Positions 25,446 to 38,559 of a DNA stretch of 64,000 bases are shown here, in pieces. The notes under the pieces are model-generated. The model had not been told where the DNA came from. It was given only the letters and a program-made list of their open reading frames with translations, and searched no databases. Where the stretch lies: assembly GCA_029287455.1 (NCBI GenBank), contig JARFRB010000099.1, positions 1-64,000 on the forward strand, in the 5' to 3' direction. This stretch comes from Pelagibius litoralis. GTDB taxonomy: Bacteria > Pseudomonadota > Alphaproteobacteria > Kiloniellales > DSM-21159. Each line of letters starts with the position of its first letter. Position 1 is the first letter of the stretch. The position numbers and the translations under genes were made by a program.

Positions 25446-26078
25446 CTAGGTGTTTTGGCCGTTCGTTAGCCAGGCGTCCCGCAATTGGGGCCGGTGGTGG
25501 CGCAGCCAGTGCAAGGCGATGATGATCGCCGCGTTCTCGATCTTGCCGGCGTCGAGCAGGGCAAAGGCCTCTTCCACCGGCACCACCTTGGCCAGGATGT
25601 CCTCGTGCTCGTGATCCAGGCCGTGTACGCCGCCGAGGCCTCGCGCGTCCGCCCGTCCGCAGAATAGCCAGACCGTCTCCGTGCTCGCCCCCGAGGTCGC
25701 CAGATACCGCTGGATCGGGACGAGATCGCGGACGCCGCAACCAGCCTCCTCCTCGGCTTCGCGAAGGGCCACGGCCTCGGCGCTTTCCCCCTCGTCGATC
25801 ATTCCGGCCACAATCTCGATCTGCCAGGGCGTCATGCCGCTCAAGAGCGCGCCCAGACGGAACTGCTCGATCAGAACGACGCTATCCAGGCCCGGGTCGT
25901 AGGGTAGGACGCCAACCGCGTGCCCGCGCTCGAAGATTTCGCGGTGCATCTCCTCCGACCAGCCGCCCCCGTAGAGGCGGTGGCGCAGGCGATAGCCCTC
26001 CATCCGGAAATACCCTTGATAGAGAACCTGCTTGTCCAGAATATCGACGCTGTCGTCAGCGCTGGGTTTACCTTGCAT
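25446..26078 (-). CDS. nudF: Nudix hydrolase, ADP-ribose pyrophosphatase type
   Basis: A 210-residue Nudix enzyme with an intact box: GMIDEGESAEAVALREAEEE continuing AGC, fitting Gx5Ex7REUxEExGU. Upstream features match the ADP-ribose diphosphatase subgroup: GHAVGVLPYDPGLDSVVLIEQ, FRLGALL, WQIEIVAG, and downstream RYLATSGASTETVWLFCG. The expected reaction is ADP-ribose to AMP and ribose 5-phosphate; related sugar nucleotides are also possible substrates. It converges on the ABC operon with only two bases between stops. Confidence 0.88.
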   Translation of the reverse strand: MQGKPSADDSVDILDKQVLYQGYFRMEGYRLRHRLYGGGWSEEMHREIFERGHAVGVLPYDPGLDSVVLIEQFRLGALLSGMTPWQIEIVAGMIDEGESAEAVALREAEEEAGCGVRDLVPIQRYLATSGASTETVWLFCGRADARGLGGVHGLDHEHEDILAKVVPVEEAFALLDAGKIENAAIIIALHWLRHHRPQLRDAWLTNGQNT

Positions 26079-26130
26079 GGCGGCACGCTAGCGAAACCCG
26101 GCCCCTCGGGAAAGCGGCAATCATTGAAGC

Positions 26131-26139
26131 GGGGAGGAG
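26131..26139 (+). promoter_or_regulatory. Strong ribosome-binding site that fixes the hydrolase-OsmC start
   Basis: GGGGAGGAG lies six bases before ATG 26145. The open frame runs 225 bases further upstream, across the Nudix gene, so this site is the main evidence for the start. Confidence 0.8.
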
Positions 26140-26144
26140 ACACA

Positions 26145-27389
26145 ATGAGGCCTAAAAGCGAGAAACTAACGTTCCCTGGAAGCGACGGGGCCGACTTAGC
26201 CGCCCGGCTGGACCTGCCCGAGGGCCCACCGGCCGCCTACGCGCTCTTCGCCCATTGTTTTACCTGCACGAAGGATATCTTCGCGGCGGCGCGGATCGCG
26301 GAAGGCTTGGCCGAGCGCGGGATCGCCGTCCTCCGCTTCGACTTCACCGGGCTTGGCCATAGTCAAGGCGAATTCGCCAACACGAACTTCTCGTCCAATG
26401 TCGAGGATCTGGTTCGCGCCGCCGATTTCCTGAGGCAAACGCGCGAGGCGCCGGCCTTGTTGATCGGCCATAGCCTGGGTGGGGCGGCGGTGCTCGCGGC
26501 GGCCGGGCGCATTCCCGAAGTCAAGGCGGTGGTGACCATCGGCGCACCGGCCGAACCCGAACATGTGCGTGCGCACTTCACGAATTACAGCACGGAGATC
26601 GAGGCGCGCGGGGAAGCAGAGGTTCTCCTTGCCGGGCGGCCCTTCCGCATCAAGAAACAATTTCTCGACGACATCGAAGGGTTCCGCTTGGTGGAGCGGA
26701 TCGGCGAACTCAAGCGAGCCCTGCTGGTCATGCATGCCCCGCTCGATCAAACCGTCGGGATCGACAACGCAACCGCTATCTTCGTCGCGGCGAAGCACCC
26801 GAAGTCGTTCGTGTCCCTGGACGGCGCGGACCACCTGCTGACCCGCCGGGAGGACGCGGCCTACGCGGCCGAGGTCCTGACCGCCTGGGCTGGCCGCTTT
26901 ATCGGCCTCGCGGCCCCCGGAAAGGACGATGCGACGTCTGCCTCGGAAGCCGAGGAGGGCCTCGTGGTGGTGCGAGAAAGCGGGGTGAGCAAGTTCACAC
27001 AATCGATTTCCGCCGGGCGCCATGCCTTGACCGCCGATGAGCCCGCGGCCCTCGGTGGCGGCGGGAAAGGGCCCACCCCCTATGATCTTCTCTTGGCCAG
27101 TCTGGGCGCTTGCACAACCATGACGCTACGGATGTACGCCGACCGGAAGAAGTGGCCGCTCGCTCGTGCATCCGTTGCACTGCGGCACGAAAAAATTCAC
27201 GCCGAGGATTGCGCGCACTGCGAAACCAAGGATGGAAAGCTTGACCGGATCACCCGCAAGATCGCCCTGGACGGAGATCTGGATGATGAGCAGCGGAGCA
27301 GATTGCTTGAAATCGCTGATAAATGCCCGGTTCACCGAACCTTGCACAGCGAGGTGATCATTGAAACGGAATCGGATGACACGGTCTGA
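26145..27389 (+). CDS. Alpha/beta hydrolase - OsmC fusion protein
   Basis: A 414-residue two-domain protein. The N-terminal half (about 1-255) is a serine alpha/beta hydrolase: FAHCFTCTKDI, RFDFTGLGHSQG, nucleophile elbow GHSLGG, acid near HAPLDQTVGI and a late His in GADHLLT. The C-terminal half (about 275-414) is OsmC/Ohr-like: GVSKFTQSISAGRHALTADEP, GPTPYDLLLASLGACTTM and DKCPVHRTL give the two redox Cys residues that reduce organic peroxides. The fusion is a known proteobacterial architecture, whose substrate remains unclear; coupling of ester hydrolysis with peroxide reduction is an inference. Confidence 0.9.
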   Translation: MRPKSEKLTFPGSDGADLAARLDLPEGPPAAYALFAHCFTCTKDIFAAARIAEGLAERGIAVLRFDFTGLGHSQGEFANTNFSSNVEDLVRAADFLRQTREAPALLIGHSLGGAAVLAAAGRIPEVKAVVTIGAPAEPEHVRAHFTNYSTEIEARGEAEVLLAGRPFRIKKQFLDDIEGFRLVERIGELKRALLVMHAPLDQTVGIDNATAIFVAAKHPKSFVSLDGADHLLTRREDAAYAAEVLTAWAGRFIGLAAPGKDDATSASEAEEGLVVVRESGVSKFTQSISAGRHALTADEPAALGGGGKGPTPYDLLLASLGACTTMTLRMYADRKKWPLARASVALRHEKIHAEDCAHCETKDGKLDRITRKIALDGDLDDEQRSRLLEIADKCPVHRTLHSEVIIETESDDTV

Positions 27390-31488: not shown

Positions 31489-33603
31489 ATGGCCAAGCCC
31501 ACGGAGGCTTATGATGGCCCAATCCTGGAATGCGAGGGGCTTTGCATCTCCTACTTCACGCGCGCCGGGGAGATACCGGCGGTTATCGATTTCAACCTGA
31601 CTCTGCCCCAGGGGGAAAGCGTTGGGCTGGTTGGCGAATCCGGCTGCGGCAAGTCCACGGTCGCCATGGCGATCATGCAGTACTTGGGCTCCAACGGCGG
31701 AATCGTCGGCGGCACAATCCGTTACAAGGGGCAGGACCTCTCCAAGCTCGGCCCGGAGGAGTTGCGCCGGCTGCGCGGCAACGAGATCGCCATGGTTTAT
31801 CAAGAGCCCATGGCCTCCCTGAACCCCTCCATTCCGGTCGGCAGGCAACTGATCGAAGTGCCGCTCCATCACGAGCAGGGCGTCGACGAGAAAGAGGCCT
31901 ATCGGCGGGCCGTGCAAATGCTTACCGACGTTAAGCTGCCGGACCCGGAGCGTGTGATGCAGTCGTTTCCGCATCAAATCTCCGGCGGGCAGCAGCAGCG
32001 CGTGGTCATTGCCATGGCCTTGCTATCCAAGCCCTCCTTGTTGCTGTTGGACGAACCGACCACCGCCCTCGACGTGACGGTGGAGGCTGGGATCGTGGAG
32101 TTGATCGGCGAGATCGCTGGCTGCTTCAATACCTCCATGATCTATATCTCCCATAACTTGGGCCTGATCCTGGAGACCTGCGACCGGATCAACGTGATGT
32201 ATTCCGGCCAGGTGGTCGAGGAGGGCAGGGTGGGCGAGGTCTTCGACCGGATGCGCCACCCCTACACCCAAGGCCTCTTTGGATGCATTCCGCTTCCAGG
32301 CGCCGACAAGACAGCGCACCCGCTGGTGCCCATCCGTGGTCAATTGCCCCTGCCGCACGAACGTCCGCCGGGCTGCCTCTTCGGCCCGCGCTGTGACTTC
32401 TTCCAGGGCGGCCGCTGCGATGGGCGGCCGGTCCACATGACGCCCTTGGACGACGATCCGGACCATCGGGTGCGCTGCCTGCGCTGGAGCGAGATCGACT
32501 GGGAAGCGCACAAGCCTAAGGGCGTGTCGGCGGAGCCATTGGCACCCGGCGAAGAGGTTCTCAACGTCAGCAACATGCGGAAGTACTACGAGATTACCGA
32601 CAACTCGATCTTGGCGATGATCCAGGGAAAGCGTGTGCGCTATGTGAAGGCCAACGAGCAAATTTCCTTCAGCGCGCGGGAGTCGGAGATCGTCGCAATC
32701 GTAGGGGAGTCGGGCTGTGGCAAGTCCACCTTCGCGAAGGTGATGATGGGCCTGGAGACGGCCACCGAAGGGGCTGTCGTCTTTCAGGGCACGGACGTCG
32801 CCAAAAAGTCTGTCCAGAGGCGCTCCGCAAAAGAGATCGGGGCCATGCAGATGGTCTTCCAGAATCCCTTCGACACACTCAACCCAAGTCATACGGTTGG
32901 CTCGCAGCTTGCCCGGGTCATCCGCAAGTTCGGCGTCGAAACCGATCCGGAGAAGGTGCGCAACCGGGTCATGGAGCTGCTTGATCTGGTGAAGCTTCCG
33001 CGAGATTTCGCCCAGCGGCGCCCACGGCAGCTCTCCGGAGGGCAGAAGCAGCGGATTGGGATCGCGCGCGCCTTCGCGGGGAACCCCTCCATGGTGGTGG
33101 CCGACGAGCCCGTGTCGGCCTTGGACGTCTCCGTCGCAGCGGCCGTGACAGGGCTCTTGATGGACATCCAGCGTAGCTACCGCACGACCTTGCTGTTCAT
33201 CAGCCATGACTTGAGCTTGGTGCGCTACCTGGCGGACCGGGTGGTGGTGATGTACCTAGGGCACATCGTGGAGCAGGGGACCACGGACGAGGTTTTTGCG
33301 CCACCCTATCACCCTTACACCGAAGCACTGCTTTCGGCGGTACCTATCGCCGACACCTCGATCGAGAAGAAGCGGATCATCCTGGAAGGCCCGCTTCCCT
33401 CGGTCATTGATCCGCCGAAGGGATGTCCCTTCAACACGCGCTGCCCGCGCAAACTCGGCACGATTTGCGAGACCGAGGCGCCGCCGGTGATCGAAGCCGA
33501 GCGGGGTCACAAGATCGCCTGCCACATCCCCTTGAGCGAACTTCAAGCGGTCGAGCCGGTGATCGTTCAGGTGGAAAAGAACAGCAAGCCGGCTGCCGAG
33601 TAG
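31489..33603 (+). CDS. Double ATP-binding protein of peptide-type ABC importer
   Basis: A 704-residue fusion of DppD- and DppF-like ATPases in one chain. Domain 1 (about 12-330): Walker A GESGCGKST, signature ISGGQQQR, Walker B LLLLDEPTTALD, and a C-terminal Cys cluster (GCLFGPRCDFFQGGRCDG) like the Fe-S binding motif of OppD-type proteins. Domain 2 (about 360-690): GESGCGKST, LSGGQKQR, VVADEPVSALD, with its own Cys motif (GCPFNTRCPRKLGTIC). Domain 2 has an insertion (YEITDNSILAMIQGKRVRY). Last gene of the importer operon. Confidence 0.93.
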   Translation: MAKPTEAYDGPILECEGLCISYFTRAGEIPAVIDFNLTLPQGESVGLVGESGCGKSTVAMAIMQYLGSNGGIVGGTIRYKGQDLSKLGPEELRRLRGNEIAMVYQEPMASLNPSIPVGRQLIEVPLHHEQGVDEKEAYRRAVQMLTDVKLPDPERVMQSFPHQISGGQQQRVVIAMALLSKPSLLLLDEPTTALDVTVEAGIVELIGEIAGCFNTSMIYISHNLGLILETCDRINVMYSGQVVEEGRVGEVFDRMRHPYTQGLFGCIPLPGADKTAHPLVPIRGQLPLPHERPPGCLFGPRCDFFQGGRCDGRPVHMTPLDDDPDHRVRCLRWSEIDWEAHKPKGVSAEPLAPGEEVLNVSNMRKYYEITDNSILAMIQGKRVRYVKANEQISFSARESEIVAIVGESGCGKSTFAKVMMGLETATEGAVVFQGTDVAKKSVQRRSAKEIGAMQMVFQNPFDTLNPSHTVGSQLARVIRKFGVETDPEKVRNRVMELLDLVKLPRDFAQRRPRQLSGGQKQRIGIARAFAGNPSMVVADEPVSALDVSVAAAVTGLLMDIQRSYRTTLLFISHDLSLVRYLADRVVVMYLGHIVEQGTTDEVFAPPYHPYTEALLSAVPIADTSIEKKRIILEGPLPSVIDPPKGCPFNTRCPRKLGTICETEAPPVIEAERGHKIACHIPLSELQAVEPVIVQVEKNSKPAAE

Positions 33604-33766
33604 GCGTCGGGGAACCGTGCCGCATGGAGGCGGATAGGGCTGCCGTGTAACCCCCCGCGAACTCCCCTGCGGTGCGCGCTTGGCAGATTTGCGCGAACGG
33701 CATTGGTCATTGCGTGGGTTCAGGCATAAGTAGCGCAGAGACATCGTTTGATCGGGAGTGAGTGCC

Positions 33767-33844
33767 ATGTCCGCGCAGGTTCTTGTTGGAACGTCTTTCC
33801 TCGTTGCCTCTCTGTTGCTCGCGGCGGTCACCGTTCTGGTTTAG
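33767..33844 (+). CDS. Predicted 25-residue single-span membrane peptide
   Basis: MSAQVLVGTSFLVASLLLAA continues with VTVLV and stops; nearly the whole peptide is a hydrophobic helix. GGGAG lies eight bases upstream of the ATG, and TTGGTC (33703) with ATAAGT (33726), 17 bases apart, is a plausible promoter. Too short for most gene finders. I do not recognise a family. It could be a regulatory membrane peptide or a chance frame; the strong Shine-Dalgarno spacing and uniform hydrophobicity favour a gene. Confidence 0.45.
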   Translation: MSAQVLVGTSFLVASLLLAAVTVLV

Positions 33845-34046
33845 CGGCCAGAGTCTGGGGCTGTACGACGGGCCGTCACCCAGCGCCCAAGTGCGCGGGC
33901 GGGTGACTAAAATTGCTGAGTAAGACCGACGATGCCGCGCGGCTACTTCTCTCTGGTCACGGGGGTCAGCCGAATAGCATTTCGACTACCACATATCCCG
34001 GCTTGTGCCTGTTTGGGGGCACGGTTCACTATTTCCATGAAGAAGA
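33845..34046. other. Short gap in small-gene region
   Basis: About 200 bases with no supported gene. A hairpin-capable segment GGGCCGTCACCCAGCGCCC lies near 33871-33889 just after the 25-codon gene and could act as its transcript end, but it lacks a U-tract. Confidence 0.25.
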
Positions 34047-34316
34047 ATGAGCCGTCACGCAATCCAAGGCGGCCAAGGGATAGGGAGTTTCGGCGAAATG
34101 TGGATGGACCGGCCCTGTGGCGTCGTGAGCGCTCCGGCTTGCGATGCCCTGGATGAATTGTCGATGGATTTTTGGGGCTTGATGAGGGAGTCCTGCCAGC
34201 GCTGCCAACTTGGCTTTGGCCCCTGCATGGCCGAAACGTTGATCGAATTGGCAGATCAGGCGAGGGACTACGCCGAACTCGGCGCAGGCCACGGTGGAGT
34301 GAGGTACTCTGCCTAA
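34047..34316 (+). CDS. Hypothetical small Cys-containing protein
   Basis: Up to 89 residues; an internal ATG at 34098 (MWMDRPCGVVSA) is an alternative start, with GGGAG about ten bases upstream. The centre reads MRESCQRCQLGFGPCMAE, a CxxC with a further Cys, followed by an amphipathic helix (LIELADQARDYAELG). Codon third positions are GC-rich as in neighbouring genes. No family recognised; a small metal-binding or redox protein is possible. It could also be a chance frame. Confidence 0.4.
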   Translation: MSRHAIQGGQGIGSFGEMWMDRPCGVVSAPACDALDELSMDFWGLMRESCQRCQLGFGPCMAETLIELADQARDYAELGAGHGGVRYSA

Positions 34317-34343
34317 GTTTCGCGCCGCGGCTGCCCGTGGGCG

Positions 34344-34562
34344 CTAGCCGCTTTCATACCCCCGCTTGACGCCCCAAACGGCGAGCTGCACCCGGTTTTT
34401 CAGATGGAGCTTGCGCAAGATCATGGTCACGTGGACCTTGATCGTGGTTTCGCTCACTCCCAGCTTGCGCGCGATCTCTTTGTTCGAATCCCCGGTGACA
34501 AGAAGTTCGACAACGTCATTTTCGCGGTTGGTGAGAAGAGATCTATCTCTTGTATTCGGCAT
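34344..34562 (-). CDS. Stand-alone LuxR-type (GerE) DNA-binding domain protein
   Basis: Only 72 residues, essentially a bare LuxR helix-turn-helix: LTNRENDVVELLVTGDSNKE, IARKLGVSETTIKVHVTMIL, RKLHLKNRVQLAVWG. No receiver or other sensory domain is encoded upstream in frame. The recognition helix (SETTIKVHVTMIL) is intact, so DNA binding is expected. A separate receiver-only gene lies 232 bases upstream on the same strand, so the pair may be a split response regulator, or this may be a remnant of a longer gene. Confidence 0.8.
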   Translation of the reverse strand: MPNTRDRSLLTNRENDVVELLVTGDSNKEIARKLGVSETTIKVHVTMILRKLHLKNRVQLAVWGVKRGYESG

Positions 34563-34794
34563 CTTTCCGTGCCGTCCTTTAAAGACATTGGGCTTATGGC
34601 CGATACTTCACGCCAGCGTCAAGTTTCAGCCGGCAATTAATTGTCAGCTTTGACCAAATCCAAACTGTCCGAAAGTACTATTCTGACTTATGCAATCCGT
34701 ATGGACGGAAGGGTGGCAATGCGGTAGTCCAAGCGGATAGCGCGATTTTATCTTTCTTGTGCCGAACGGGACGGGGATCGGCGCGGGCCCTGGT

Positions 34795-35169
34795 TCAGGA
34801 GCTATGGCGCACGCGCTCTTGAGCAGCCCGTTCGATCGTGGCGATTAGGTCCTCGAACCTGCAGGTCTTCGAGAGAATGTCGAAGGCATGATCGCGCCCC
34901 TGCTTTAAGGCTTTCTCGAAGTATCCGCTCATGTAGATGACCGCGATCCTTTGCTCGGCGAGATAAGCACCGACGGTTATTCCGTCGAGCGCTCCCTCCA
35001 GGGCAATGTCCACGATAGCTACAAGGGGATTCGACGCTTCGGCCAGTTCCAGCGCCTCGGTGGCTTCCGTGGTGACGCCAACCACGTCATAGCCGTGATC
35101 CTCAAGGTTAAGCCTCAGGCTTTCCGCCAAAAGCTTGTCGTCCTCGACAATCAGGATCCCGTGGTTCAT
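34795..35169 (-). CDS. Single-domain response regulator (receiver only)
   Basis: About 124 residues from the ATG giving MNHGILIVEDDKLLAESL (an in-frame start eight codons earlier is possible). All receiver residues are present: acidic pair in VEDD, phospho-acceptor Asp in VAIVDIALEG, Ser/Thr-position residue in VIYMSGY and Lys in ILSKTCR. No output domain follows, as in CheY-like or Sma0114-type single-domain regulators of alphaproteobacteria. It probably acts by protein contact. A 20-bp element shared with another small gene lies about 88 bases upstream. Confidence 0.85.
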   Translation of the reverse strand: MNHGILIVEDDKLLAESLRLNLEDHGYDVVGVTTEATEALELAEASNPLVAIVDIALEGALDGITVGAYLAEQRIAVIYMSGYFEKALKQGRDHAFDILSKTCRFEDLIATIERAAQERVRHSS

Positions 35170-35256
35170 GTCATCATGTTCCGGCACCGGCAACCGGTAG
35201 CTTCGCAGGTGCTGAACCAGCGTTCAACGGCCAAAAATGCGACCGTAAGAATCCTT

Positions 35257-35276
35257 GTGTTATGGCCTACAGGCAA
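35257..35276. repeat. Copy A of a duplicated 20-bp element
   Basis: GTGTTATGGCCTACAGGCAA matches 36301-36320 at 17 of 20 positions. It sits upstream of the minus-strand receiver gene, suggesting a shared promoter or operator. Confidence 0.5.
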
Positions 35277-35323
35277 ATCGCCTTCCAGAAAAAAAGCGGC
35301 CGAACGAGGCTGATCCCCTCTCG

Positions 35324-35641
35324 CTAGAGCTCTTCGGCCTGTAGAGCTCGTTGGGCACCGCCCGTCGGACAGCCGGGCTTCCGCGCAAAGCGGTCACGAT
35401 CAGCTTCCACGATATTGATGAGGCGCGGATTCGCATAGACCGAGGCGACTGGGTTGGAACGGCCGGGGCAGGGCGGCTCGGCCGCGCCTAGCGGTTCAAA
35501 AGCGAAGCCGAAACTCCGCACGGGGCAAGCGTGGCAGCCTGGGTTCGTGAGCCCGAGAAACGCGCGGGCGCTGCGCCGGCACCCTTTGCAAACGTGCGTG
35601 CTGCTCCTGGTTCCACTCGTGTGATGCTTCAAACACGTCAT
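35324..35641 (-). CDS. Hypothetical small protein with zinc-ribbon-like CxxC pair
   Basis: A 105-residue frame preceded by AAGGAGG ten bases before the ATG. The N-terminal part has CKGC (18-21) and CHAC (36-39) separated by 14 residues, a spacing compatible with a small zinc-binding ribbon, plus two more Cys later. The C-terminal half (ASVYANPRLINIVEADRDRF) has coding-like composition. No known family recognised. Support is the ribosome-binding site, Cys pattern and GC-rich codon third positions. Confidence 0.4.
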   Translation of the reverse strand: MTCLKHHTSGTRSSTHVCKGCRRSARAFLGLTNPGCHACPVRSFGFAFEPLGAAEPPCPGRSNPVASVYANPRLINIVEADRDRFARKPGCPTGGAQRALQAEEL

Positions 35642-36062
35642 GGCTTGTATGCCTCCTTCCGCGATGAAGCAGGCCCAATGGGCTGGCTATCGGCCTGACC
35701 TGCGAGCTCATCAAGACACCCAGGTGCGGGGCCGTGCCGGGTCGTTCCGAAATGCAACTTCGGCGCCGAGCGGGGTCTCGGATTCGCGGAATGAGACGCA
35801 GTCCGCGGGAAACGTCCTTTCCCGACTCGGGCGCGATGTGTGGTGGAAATTACCTATTTCCTTTTGTTTCAGATAGTTGAGAGAATTTTGCGGACCATGG
35901 GACGGACTGGCACGCAGCTTGCTGCTCAAAAAGCAGCCTTCCTTGTTTTCCCTGAGCCTTGAACTTGGGCCCCGGATTTTCCCGGGGCCCCTTTTCTTTT
36001 GAAAAGGCGCTATTGGGCGGCTTCGGCCCCCACCTTGGCGGGGGCCGTGCCGTCTTGATTGC
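35642..36062. other. Gene-poor stretch with two hairpins
   Basis: About 420 bases with no supported protein gene. It has an AT-rich part (35850-35890), a GCTGCTcaaaaAGCAGC hairpin near 35918-35935, then a perfect terminator (35967-36000) and a GGCCCCC/GGGGGCC hairpin (36025-36046). The arrangement suggests a short plus-strand RNA of roughly 100 nt ending at the terminator. Confidence 0.4.
35967..36000 (+). terminator. Strong rho-independent terminator without an obvious upstream gene
   Basis: GGGCCCCGG (35967-35975) and CCGGGGCCC (35982-35990) form a perfect 9-bp stem with loop ATTTTC, followed by CTTTTCTTTT. No plus-strand protein gene ends nearby, so it probably terminates a small RNA. Confidence 0.8.
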
Positions 36063-36233
36063 TTAAAATGGGCCCCCGAACACCATTGCGATCCACGCAG
36101 CGATCCCCAAAAAGCCAAGTGTCGCAGTCGAAATCATGAGAGAGCAGTCGCGCAAGGATAGGACCTGTTCGTCCTGGTGACTGTTTTGACGGATGATTCT
36201 AACAGCGCTTCCGACCTTGCCCTGAAACGACAT
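36063..36233 (-). CDS. Predicted 56-residue protein with C-terminal membrane helix
   Basis: Starts MSFQGKVGSAVRIIRQNSHQ and ends in a hydrophobic segment, TATLGFLGIAAWIAMVFGGP, likely a single membrane span with the charged N-terminal half in the cytoplasm. GGAGG six bases before the ATG is an excellent ribosome-binding site. A hairpin (36025-36046) follows the stop by 17 bases. The 20-bp element at 36301-36320 is about 68 bases upstream. No family recognised; below the usual gene-calling size cut-off. Confidence 0.6.
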   Translation of the reverse strand: MSFQGKVGSAVRIIRQNSHQDEQVLSLRDCSLMISTATLGFLGIAAWIAMVFGGPF

Positions 36234-36300
36234 TCCTTACCTCCCCACGGCGTACCGTCTCTCTCATGCGAGACATTAAGTAACCTGAAATAAAGATCCC

Positions 36301-36320
36301 GTGTTGTGGCATACAGGGAA
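36301..36320. repeat. Copy B of a duplicated 20-bp element
   Basis: GTGTTGTGGCATACAGGGAA, 17/20 identical to 35257-35276. It overlaps a GGAAC (36317) that is 15 bases before CGTT (36337), close to but not matching the 16-17 base spacing of alphaproteobacterial EcfG promoters. Confidence 0.5.
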
Positions 36321-36328
36321 CAAACTTG

Positions 36329-36342
36329 TTAACGATCGTTAA
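36329..36342. promoter_or_regulatory. Perfect 14-bp palindrome, possible operator
   Basis: TTAACGATCGTTAA is its own reverse complement and is followed by a run of A then T. It lies between divergent small genes (36063-36233 minus and 36438-36539 plus), where a dimeric repressor could sit. Confidence 0.4.
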
Positions 36343-36437
36343 AAAATTTTTCGCGCTGCGGACTTAATCCAAATCAGTTTCGCTCCTTGCGCCTTCAACC
36401 AGCATGGTTATTGGAAATGGTGCAAGGGATGAGTTCG

Positions 36438-36539
36438 ATGACTTCCGGTAATATTCTTTACCTTTGTCTTGTTTTGGTCGCGTTTGGGGCATTCAGCGCG
36501 GCTCTTGCCCATGCCTCTCATCTGACGTCCAAGCATTAG
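36438..36539 (+). CDS. Predicted 33-residue single-span membrane peptide
   Basis: MTSGNILYLCLVLVAFGAFS followed by AALAHASHLTSKH. Residues 5-26 form one hydrophobic helix with a short polar tail. AAGGGA lies eight bases before this ATG; a Met three codons earlier (36429) would overlap that site and is less likely. Small one-helix proteins of similar look are frequent in alphaproteobacteria but have no general function. Confidence rests on the ribosome-binding site and composition. Confidence 0.5.
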   Translation: MTSGNILYLCLVLVAFGAFSAALAHASHLTSKH

Positions 36540-36638
36540 CCTGCCGCAGACGCGATCGAAACTCGGTGCGTCTGGCCGCGAGTGGGCAGGCGCGGGCGGG
36601 TGTGCGCCTAGATTTCGCTTTGGATATCCAAGATAATC

Positions 36639-36653
36639 TGTGTTAAATACACA
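36639..36653. promoter_or_regulatory. Inverted repeat upstream of LuxR-type regulator
   Basis: TGTGT and ACACA flank TAAAT about 120 bases before the regulator's start codon. It is a candidate binding site for a dimeric regulator, perhaps the gene's own product; no further evidence. Confidence 0.25.
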
Positions 36654-36771
36654 CGAGAATGTTTGAATTCTTGGGCGGCTTAAGCGCCTGTCCAAGTGGT
36701 TTAGACACAAGCGCCGAACGCGAATTTCCTACTAAAAAGAACAACCATGACAAGGCGCGAGGAGGGGGGAT

Positions 36772-37452
36772 TTGACTTGGGTCCTCGTGGCGGATAACGA
36801 GCCTCTGTTCCGTGAAGGATTGCGGAACCTGTTGTCCCGTATCGACCCGGGCGCGGAAGTCCTTGAGGCTGGCGATCAGGATGAGGCAGCCGGGCTTTTA
36901 GCGTCGCGGGATCGTCCCGAAATGATGGTTTGTTCATTGGTCCTGCCTGGCCCGGAATCCCAGGGCGGGCTGAAGAGTTACCTGACCAAGGACGCGGACC
37001 TGCGAGTTATTGGTGTCATGAATGATTGCGAGAGCCTTGATCCCCTCGATGTTTTACGCGTTGGGGCCAGCGGAGTGGTTTCCCGCACAACGGAACGGCG
37101 CATTCTTCAATTGGCCCTCTACCTTGTGAAGGCGGGTGGGATCTATGTGCCCTCGCGTAGTCTCAAGGCCCTTGTCGTCGAGCCCGAACATGGGCAGCCG
37201 GCTGCGTCAGATAAAACCGAGCCGCGCTTGGTCAGCGATCCGCGGGTCGACATGACCCCTCGACAGCGCCAGGTGCTGCGCTGTCTTGTGAAGGGTATGT
37301 CCAATAAGCTCATCGCCCGCGAGCTTGGCCTCGAACTCGCTACGGTCAAGACTCACGTCCACGGAGTGATCCACAAGCTTGGGGTCGGCAACCGCACCCA
37401 AGCCGCCCTGAAGGCCCATTCCCTTGGATTGGAAGGCTCGCGCTCGCCTTAA
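36772..37452 (+). CDS. LuxR/NarL-family regulator with degenerate receiver domain
   Basis: A 226-residue two-domain regulator. TTG 36772 is the start: GGAGG lies six bases upstream. The receiver (about 1-120) keeps the acidic DNE pair (VADNEPLF), but the phospho-acceptor position in MMVCSLVLPGP is Ser instead of Asp, and the usual KD/K near GVVSRTTERR is Arg. Phosphorylation by a kinase is therefore unlikely. The C-terminal GerE domain (MTPRQRQVLRCLVKGMSNKL, IARELGLELATVKTHVHGVI) is intact. It probably acts as a phosphorylation-independent or ligand/partner-controlled transcription factor. It ends four bases into the convergent secreted-protein gene. Confidence 0.88.
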   Translation: MTWVLVADNEPLFREGLRNLLSRIDPGAEVLEAGDQDEAAGLLASRDRPEMMVCSLVLPGPESQGGLKSYLTKDADLRVIGVMNDCESLDPLDVLRVGASGVVSRTTERRILQLALYLVKAGGIYVPSRSLKALVVEPEHGQPAASDKTEPRLVSDPRVDMTPRQRQVLRCLVKGMSNKLIARELGLELATVKTHVHGVIHKLGVGNRTQAALKAHSLGLEGSRSP

Positions 37453-37823
37453 TCGATGGCGCGGCTGGTACAGCCGATCCGGCTTCCGTTCACATAGGAG
37501 GTGTAGATGATCTGGCACGCCATCAGGCGGCGGTTGCGCTGATCGATAAACCAGAGTGTCCGTCCAGCAGAGGTGATCTTGCTGAAGTTCGCTGTCTGTA
37601 GATCGCTGCCCGTGCTTTCCTTGACGGTCTTGGTGGCCTTCTTACTGCCGGGTCCACGCAAAATCTTAACGCCGCCGGTGCCCGCGTTGCCGATGGTCAC
37701 CAGCTTTCCGCCCGCCGTCTTCTCCTCCTCCGCTTGCGCCGGCACCGCCAGGGAAATGATCGCGGCTGTAGCAATGGCAAGGGCAGCTCGCGTTGCGAGC
37801 CGGGATTTTTGGTTTCGGCGCAT
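37449..37823 (-). CDS. Hypothetical secreted protein
   Basis: A 124-residue protein with a signal peptide (RRNQKSRLATRAALAIATAA then IISLAVPAQAEE, cleavage near 31). The mature part has two Cys (MACQIIYTS and RIGCTSR) that could form a disulfide, and a beta-rich pattern such as TLWFIDQRNRRLMACQI. Periplasmic or extracellular location is expected. Not recognised as a known family. Good codon use and signal peptide make the gene credible. Confidence 0.65.
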   Translation of the reverse strand: MRRNQKSRLATRAALAIATAAIISLAVPAQAEEEKTAGGKLVTIGNAGTGGVKILRGPGSKKATKTVKESTGSDLQTANFSKITSAGRTLWFIDQRNRRLMACQIIYTSYVNGSRIGCTSRAID

Positions 37824-37978
37824 TTCAAGTCGCTCCCAAAGGTTCTCCGCCTTCTATCTGAAGACTAGGCGAAATTCCGTCACGCCGCCCAGGGCCGTGC
37901 GGCGTATTGGGAGAACTCTTGCGCCGAAAACTAATTCAATCTTTCTATTTATAATTGTTCGTTAGATCGTGGTAGGGC

Positions 37979-38188
37979 CTACGCGGCGTTGGCGCGGGGG
38001 ATTTGGCGCCCGGCGGCCGCCAACTCTGGTTCGACCTCCGAAAGAATGAAGATCTTTTCGCCATCGGGGTCGCGCCGCTTGAGCACCCCCTTGGCGATTC
38101 CGTTTTTCAGAAGGGCCGCAACGATGCGGTCCACTTCCGCGCGGTTGTCCTCGGTAAGGGTAATGATGGCGGAAATGTCAGCCTTCAT
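37979..38188 (-). CDS. Hypothetical small protein
   Basis: A 69-residue acidic/amphipathic protein beginning MKADISAIITLTEDNRAEVD with a second half LKRRDPDGEKIFILSEVEPE. GGAG lies nine bases upstream of this ATG; an upstream in-frame TTG would place the start inside that site and is rejected. The pattern (helix, then charged turn and beta strand) could be a small winged-helix-like fold, but I cannot name a family. Confidence 0.55.
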   Translation of the reverse strand: MKADISAIITLTEDNRAEVDRIVAALLKNGIAKGVLKRRDPDGEKIFILSEVEPELAAAGRQIPRANAA

Positions 38189-38343
38189 GTCGTTTTTCTC
38201 CAATGATCGGTAACGCGCGGACAGCTTTGCCTTCGAAGGATTATCGAAAACTTAAAACGCCCGGTGGAATTGGTAGTAGGCGGAAAGGGGTAGTGGGCGA
38301 CGAAAGCCGTTGACGGCCGCCCTTGGCTGTGGGACGAGGGAGC

Positions 38344-38532
38344 TGGCGGTTCCCGCGAAGCCGGACGGACAGCGGGATCAAGAGGGAACACGGTGAGGCC
38401 GACCCAACAGGGACCGAATCCGTGGCTGCCCCCGCAACTGTGAGCGGTTAGGGCCGCGTCGATCCATGCCACTGGGCAACCGGGAAGGCGGACACGAGCC
38501 CGACGAGCCGCGAGCCAGGAGACCTGCCGCCA
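38344..38532 (+). ncRNA. Adenosylcobalamin (B12) riboswitch
   Basis: All hallmarks of the cobalamin aptamer are present in order: AGAGGGAACACGGTGAGGCC, a GAATCCGTGGCTGC segment, the CCCGCAACTGTGAGCGG core, GCCACTGGG, and the B12 box AGCCAGGAGACCTGCC near its end. TGGCGG (38344-38349) and CCGCCA (38527-38532) close the P1 stem. It should repress the downstream cobW-cobN-cobO genes when adenosylcobalamin is abundant. Confidence 0.97.
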
Positions 38533-38559
38533 CCGGCCGCGAAACGGCCGGGCTGTTTT
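38533..38559 (+). terminator. Riboswitch expression-platform terminator
   Basis: CCGGCCG (38533-38539) and CGGCCGG (38545-38551) form a 7-bp stem with loop CGAAA directly after the aptamer's P1, followed by GCTGTTTT. This suggests transcriptional attenuation on ligand binding, though the T run is short. Confidence 0.6.

Follow-up and report, generated by a model that had tools for sequence, protein, structure and literature searches.

The interval described here lies on contig JARFRB010000099.1 of Pelagibius litoralis, within a window of 64,000 nucleotides that was analysed as a whole. Between an oligopeptide-type ABC transporter, which ends at 33603, and a cobalamin riboswitch (38330-38545), itself followed by cobW, cobN and a CobO-type gene, about 4.7 kb encode no protein longer than 226 aa. 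Pfam recognizes three regulators in this interval, namely a LuxR-type protein consisting of a helix-turn-helix (HTH) only, a stand-alone receiver, and a LuxR regulator whose receiver is degenerate, and every frame that a sequence-only reading had listed there is present as an open frame (Table 1). That reading had taken the cluster for a possible undescribed signaling unit, a proposal that holds for two genes, perhaps three, and fails for the 4.7 kb as one unit. What recurs in other genomes is the HTH-only gene together with a gene, on the opposite strand, for a small protein with four cysteines, here called Cys4; that the real unit is this two-gene regulatory pair, with Cys4 as its input, has in our judgment about an even chance of being correct.

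The best start of the window's Cys4 is at 34098, with an alternative upstream start at 34047. When the frames of the window were compared with fetched loci by tblastn, contig 123 of this genome was found to carry a Cys4 paralogue (40% over 47 aa), with the spacing C-X17-C-X2-C-X6-C as in the window and an adjoining HTH-only LuxR gene. A search with a two-row profile over 61 genomes of the order brought the copies here to three and added 13 from another family (3 in G025, 6 in G033 and 4 in G018); locus L202 raised the G018 count to five, and a sample of the class added genome G263 with five, so that the family comprises 22 copies in five genomes: 3 here, 14 in the three genomes of another family, and 5 in G263. 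The three copies in this genome have identical 17-2-6 spacing, and HTH-only genes stand beside two of the three. Two borderline members of the first search, L125 (E 0.007) and L127 (E 0.039), are counted among the 22. Four genomes matched in the order at E 0.02-0.09 were dropped for want of the cysteine pattern, as were two matches from the class sample, one a 505-aa frame (G382) and one with an internal stop (G241). The distribution is patchy, with Cys4 accepted in 4 of 61 genomes of the order and 2 of 385 of the class sample; absence from the class and phylum samples is weak evidence, because no more than 15 candidates of each genome were scored there.

All four cysteines are invariant in the 21 aligned members, where the pattern filter itself demanded three of the four and did not demand the first, and most members share the 17-2-6 spacing of the window protein. 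The family is new to Pfam and NCBIfam: the members have no significant match in the former and no family in the latter, where the best score is that of one member to RnfB (E 0.0023). Searches of plasmids with two Cys4 proteins gave no match. A codon-context score, trained on 26 long frames of the window and compared with wrong-frame decoys, is weak for Cys4 (9 of 89 decoys score as high), so that the gene looks poor by composition and strong by homology.

The same score supports coding for the HTH-only frame (0 of 89 decoys), which had been described from its letters as a LuxR domain with no input domain. Indeed, the frame measures 87 aa from stop to stop and holds a GerE-type HTH only (73.8 bits to Pfam GerE, cut-off 23.5), and its AlphaFold model resembles the DNA-binding domain of NarL [1je8, template modeling (TM) score 0.79] and GerE (1fse, TM 0.76). 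Among 11 aligned HTH members, Pfam GerE matches nine and Pfam sigma-70 region 4 matches eight at E up to 0.1. The fourth, dimerizing helix is kept only in the window protein, its contig-123 paralogue and L155, and the other eight end after helix 3; lacking that helix, these eight proteins presumably need a partner. In the G263 members L157 and L158 the recognition helix is partly acidic.

To describe the association between the two genes, we used a hidden Markov model (HMM) of the HTH protein built from the nine members first noticed by eye beside Cys4 copies. Across 21 Cys4 loci (5261 frames), the model picked out 11 short frames with an HTH only, none of them more than 410 bp from Cys4 and two of them new to it (L154, E 2.7e-13; L137, E 2e-8); the long-frame hits away from Cys4 are ordinary LuxR-type regulators. 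A genome-wide search with the HTH profile in the five carrier genomes yielded four new short frames (L202-L205), and a further one, L206, was left out of the count as transposase-like by eye. The frame on contig 16 of G018 (L202) represents a pair found from the HTH side, with a previously unlisted, convergent Cys4 alongside (E 4.1e-11). Altogether, 12 of the 22 Cys4 genes and 12 of the 15 short HTH-only frames are paired within about 410 bp (about 0.02 pairs expected by chance, as estimated from copy numbers and genome sizes). The two genes lie on opposite strands in all 12 pairs, four of them divergent and eight convergent, in which the distance between the stop codons runs from -29 to +75 bp. 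In the window the arrangement is convergent, the HTH stop lying 27 bp from the Cys4 stop, and in G263 all five Cys4 copies are paired in this manner. The pair has been duplicated within genomes. The check on synteny that the sequence-only reading had suggested comes out positive for Cys4 and HTH in five genomes and for these two with a receiver in one other genome, and negative for the rest of the cluster. Searches confined to an open-access library listed no paper that describes a pair of this type.

The stand-alone receiver of the window may be a third member. As had been read from the letters, it is a receiver domain alone, with the acceptor Asp and the Lys kept and no output domain, and its frame scores as coding (0 of 29 decoys). 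On contigs 45 and 107 of G263 a single receiver stands beside the pair in the order and orientation seen in the window (Cys4> <HTH <REC). The closest relatives of the window receiver (45-56% identity) lie among unrelated genes, away from Cys4, in G003, G008, G018, G025 and G033. Its position invites another explanation, that a NarL-type response regulator has broken into the receiver and the HTH, with the nearby small frames as products of decay, since a split gene of this type should leave a receiver followed by an HTH on one strand, as is seen here. However, about 230 bp separate the two frames, both score as coding, the relatives of the receiver are stand-alone in five genomes, and HTH-only proteins recur and are under selection. 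A split NarL regulator is thus largely refuted by the stand-alone relatives of both parts, and we regard it as very improbable.

Purifying selection acts on the paralogues of both proteins of the pair, with a ratio of nonsynonymous to synonymous substitution rates (dN/dS) of about 0.3 for Cys4 (L157/L158; L128/L129/L122) and for the HTH (L157/L158; L137/L138); the value for the receiver is about 0.1 (L157/L158). This selection bears on the idea that the two genes have no regulatory partnership and travel together as a selfish or hitch-hiking unit, for instance a toxin-antitoxin system or another kind of addiction pair, that has spread through duplication and transfer. The patchy distribution of Cys4, at three to six copies in each carrier genome, would be expected of such a unit, but it would have to be reconciled with selection, with the opposite strands of all 12 pairs, unlike the co-directional operons of type II toxin-antitoxin systems, and with the lack of any plasmid match or significant phage-family match. 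We consider it improbable.

Several observations weigh against a regulatory partnership of Cys4 with the HTH protein. An HTH partner is missing beside 10 of the 22 Cys4 genes, and a Cys4 neighbour beside three of the HTH-only genes (L203, L204, L205), so that the association cannot be an obligatory one; because paired members were used to train the HTH model, it may have under-counted unpaired ones. L157 and L158 are recent close duplicates rather than independent cases, and the number of independent pairing events is therefore below 12. Counts of 11-mers revealed no convincing upstream DNA motif shared among the loci (G000 4/6 against a shuffled maximum of 3; G263 3/8 against 3-4; G033 3/8 against 2-3). 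Foldseek found no fold match for the predicted Cys4 model, which is helical (predicted local distance difference test score, pLDDT, 80). As for the possible third member, the G263 receivers share 14-20% identity with that of the window and carry Ala at the acceptor position, which means that the association is either old or convergent.

The unpaired copies also favor a different role for Cys4, namely that of a small protein structured by zinc, similar to a zinc ribbon, whose target is RNA polymerase, DNA or another protein and which has no redox role, the HTH protein being its regulator or a co-regulated neighbour. The CPRCxGxG core resembles DnaJ-type zinc modules, and comparison with Protein Data Bank (PDB) sequences gave weak matches to L33, RPA12 and DnaJ (E 0.14-4.9). 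Moreover, in two genera the gene immediately ahead of Cys4 encodes a Kef-type cation/proton exchanger that has a TrkA_N domain (L131 in G025 and L202 in G018), with the HTH partner present in G018 only. Against this, no zinc family is matched significantly in Pfam or NCBIfam, and opposite-strand pairs with nearly abutting stops in three bacterial families point to a tighter link between the two genes. We hold this explanation to be possible, though somewhat unlikely.

Signaling genes neighbour several Cys4 copies, including a phytochrome kinase (L156), a DAHL hybrid kinase (L154), a CheB-CheR-PAS protein (L133), a PAS kinase (L142) and CheZ (L143); these surroundings would fit a signaling role. 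At L134 (G033, contig 220), two LuxR regulators that face each other are located 0.9-1.3 kb from Cys4; one is full-length and has a receiver-like half, and the N-terminal half of the other is unrecognized. A Crp-like regulator and a protein resembling CheB are found close to the HTH-only gene at L203.

The remaining small genes of the 4.7-kb stretch are probably unrelated neighbours of the pair. The LuxR regulator at 36772 (1 of 41 decoys), the 124-aa protein (0 of 29) and the 74-aa protein, p74 (0 of 89), are supported as coding. The claim that the first has a non-phosphorylatable receiver is borne out by the replacement of the acceptor Asp by Ser, also seen in a paralogue on contig 140 (L105:323-1042); Asp is kept in seven of eight other readable relatives, seven further rows of this alignment having been dropped because they had been read on the wrong strand. 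The receiver half scores 28.5 bits (cut-off 30.2). The contig-140 paralogue adjoins a Crp/Fnr-type regulator (Pfam), and other neighbours look by eye like BON and universal-stress (UspA) proteins. The regulator at 36772 probably stands outside the pair, as the 124-aa protein does, and p74 has no match among 57 relatives.

Support is weak for the three membrane peptides and the second Cys-rich protein of the sequence-only reading. For the 25-aa peptide the coding score is undecided (4 of 173 decoys), and no homologue was found in the fetched loci, with which the 56-aa frame was compared as well. The latter scores poorly (16 of 89) and is plausible but unsupported as a gene. The 33-aa peptide also has a weak score (20 of 173), and its weak matches, in 2 of 57 relatives, lie in other contexts with no synteny. 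Single-span peptides of 33-41 aa and the type M-x-x-G-x-x-LYL...AF occur in the window (36438-36539), at L170:1456-1581 and at L171, and may be an undescribed small-protein family. Whereas Cys4 is confirmed by its homologues, the second Cys-rich frame (C-X2-C-X14-C-X2-C) has a weak score (4 of 29) and no Pfam, NCBIfam or plasmid match, and is not supported as a gene. By sequence alone, positions 35967-36000, which lie between this and the 56-aa frame, look like a terminator, with a G+C-rich inverted repeat ahead of a T-rich run. Elsewhere in the window, Pfam finds an alpha/beta-hydrolase and an OsmC-like domain combined in one frame (25920-27389).

Table 1. Features of the interval between the ABC transporter and the cobalamin riboswitch
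Feature	Positions	Strand	Evidence
25-aa hydrophobic frame	33767..33844	+	coding score
Cys4, 72 aa, C-X17-C-X2-C-X6-C	34098..34316	+	homology
HTH-only LuxR/GerE-type protein, 72 aa, no input domain	34344..34562	-	Pfam GerE, E 8.7e-21
Stand-alone receiver, possible third member; alternative TTG start 35193	34795..35169	-	Response_reg, E 4.9e-16
105-aa Cys-rich frame	35324..35641	-	Shine-Dalgarno-like GGAGG as sole support
56-aa frame, one hydrophobic stretch behind GGGGAGGTAAGGA	36063..36233	-	open frame
33-aa single-span membrane peptide	36438..36539	+	weak matches in relatives
LuxR regulator with pseudo-receiver; TTG start behind AGGAGG	36772..37452	+	GerE, 3.9e-17
124-aa protein, signal-peptide-like N-terminus	37449..37823	-	coding score
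69-74-aa protein (p74) behind GGAG	37979..38188	-	coding score

Taken as a single stress-response module, the whole stretch would have only the co-location of its genes to recommend it. In no other fetched locus does the conserved set extend beyond Cys4, HTH and receiver, and a second genome with the same gene set was not found among the sampled relatives; the other small proteins are not near Cys4 in the fetched neighbourhoods (tblastn), the paralogue of the 36772 regulator lies elsewhere, and the best relatives of the receiver have other neighbours in five genomes. Several of the frames have no coding support and the directions of transcription are mixed. With no wider synteny, the cluster as one module is ruled out, and we assign it hardly any likelihood.

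Returning to the pair as a regulatory unit, we infer from the sequences that the four cysteines of Cys4 bind metal, as an iron-sulfur (Fe-S) cluster or as zinc, and a Cys4 structured by zinc is, on present evidence, nearly as likely as one that holds a cluster. Cys4 would then be the missing input of the HTH protein, which it may bind or release according to redox state or metal supply, and where the HTH protein has no dimerization helix of the GerE/NarL kind, Cys4 may supply the dimer or a DNA-binding platform. Where it is present, in the window and one further genome, the single-domain receiver might connect the pair with a histidine kinase. LuxR proteins that consist of an HTH only are known and their input is usually unclear; the recurrent small partner gene is a concrete candidate for it. 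A more specific version, which we consider unlikely, is that Cys4 is an analogue of WhiB that evolved independently in Alphaproteobacteria-like hosts, a tiny Fe-S protein that would sense oxygen, nitric oxide (NO) or redox state by clasping a sigma-4-like HTH-only protein. A one-component regulator would then be split into two facing genes, its input in one and its DNA-binding domain in the other, and the several pairs of a genome would act as a private set of switches.

These features can be compared with known systems. GerE and PedR are likewise LuxR-type HTH proteins of about 70 aa without an input domain, and neither is known to have an adjacent Cys4 gene; many HTH partners here differ from GerE in having no fourth helix, and the window protein scores 50.9 bits against a cut-off of 120 for the PedR equivalog of NCBIfam. 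The best NCBIfam match of the window receiver is PRK13435, the MrrA/SdrG-type receivers of Alphaproteobacteria, which likewise consist of a receiver domain alone, but it scores 61.4 bits against a cut-off of 151, and it reads VIYMSGY in what we take to be the place of the FATGUY stretch. Receiver logic is joined with four cysteines and an Fe-S cluster in Caulobacter FixT, an Fe-S-binding receiver (PMC7078487). The likeness would extend to the pair insofar as Cys4 holds a cluster; the cysteines of FixT are inside the receiver, whereas here they are in a separate protein, the window receiver having one Cys.

A close parallel to the proposed mechanism is offered by the WhiB-like (Wbl) proteins of Actinobacteria, which are likewise small and helical, with one Cys, a gap, a CxxC and a fourth Cys. 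WhiB holds a [4Fe-4S] cluster by four cysteines and binds sigma region 4, and the cysteines of WhiB1 are Cys 9, 37, 40 and 46 (PMC5741622). Their spacing is 27-2-5, compared with 17-2-6 in Cys4, and the phylum is different. The GVWGG motif after the fourth Cys is absent from all 21 aligned Cys4 rows, no Wbl chain is matched among solved chains at E up to 10, and no Wbl family appears in the Pfam and NCBIfam scans. Membership of Cys4 in the WhiB family is ruled out by spacing, motif and sequence searches. A further likeness lies in the partner, in that sigma region 4 is what Wbl proteins bind, and its Pfam model matches 8 of the 11 aligned HTH partners here. If the cysteines of Cys4 do hold an Fe-S cluster, the pair would represent a second solution, outside Actinobacteria, to the control of transcription in the style of WhiB.

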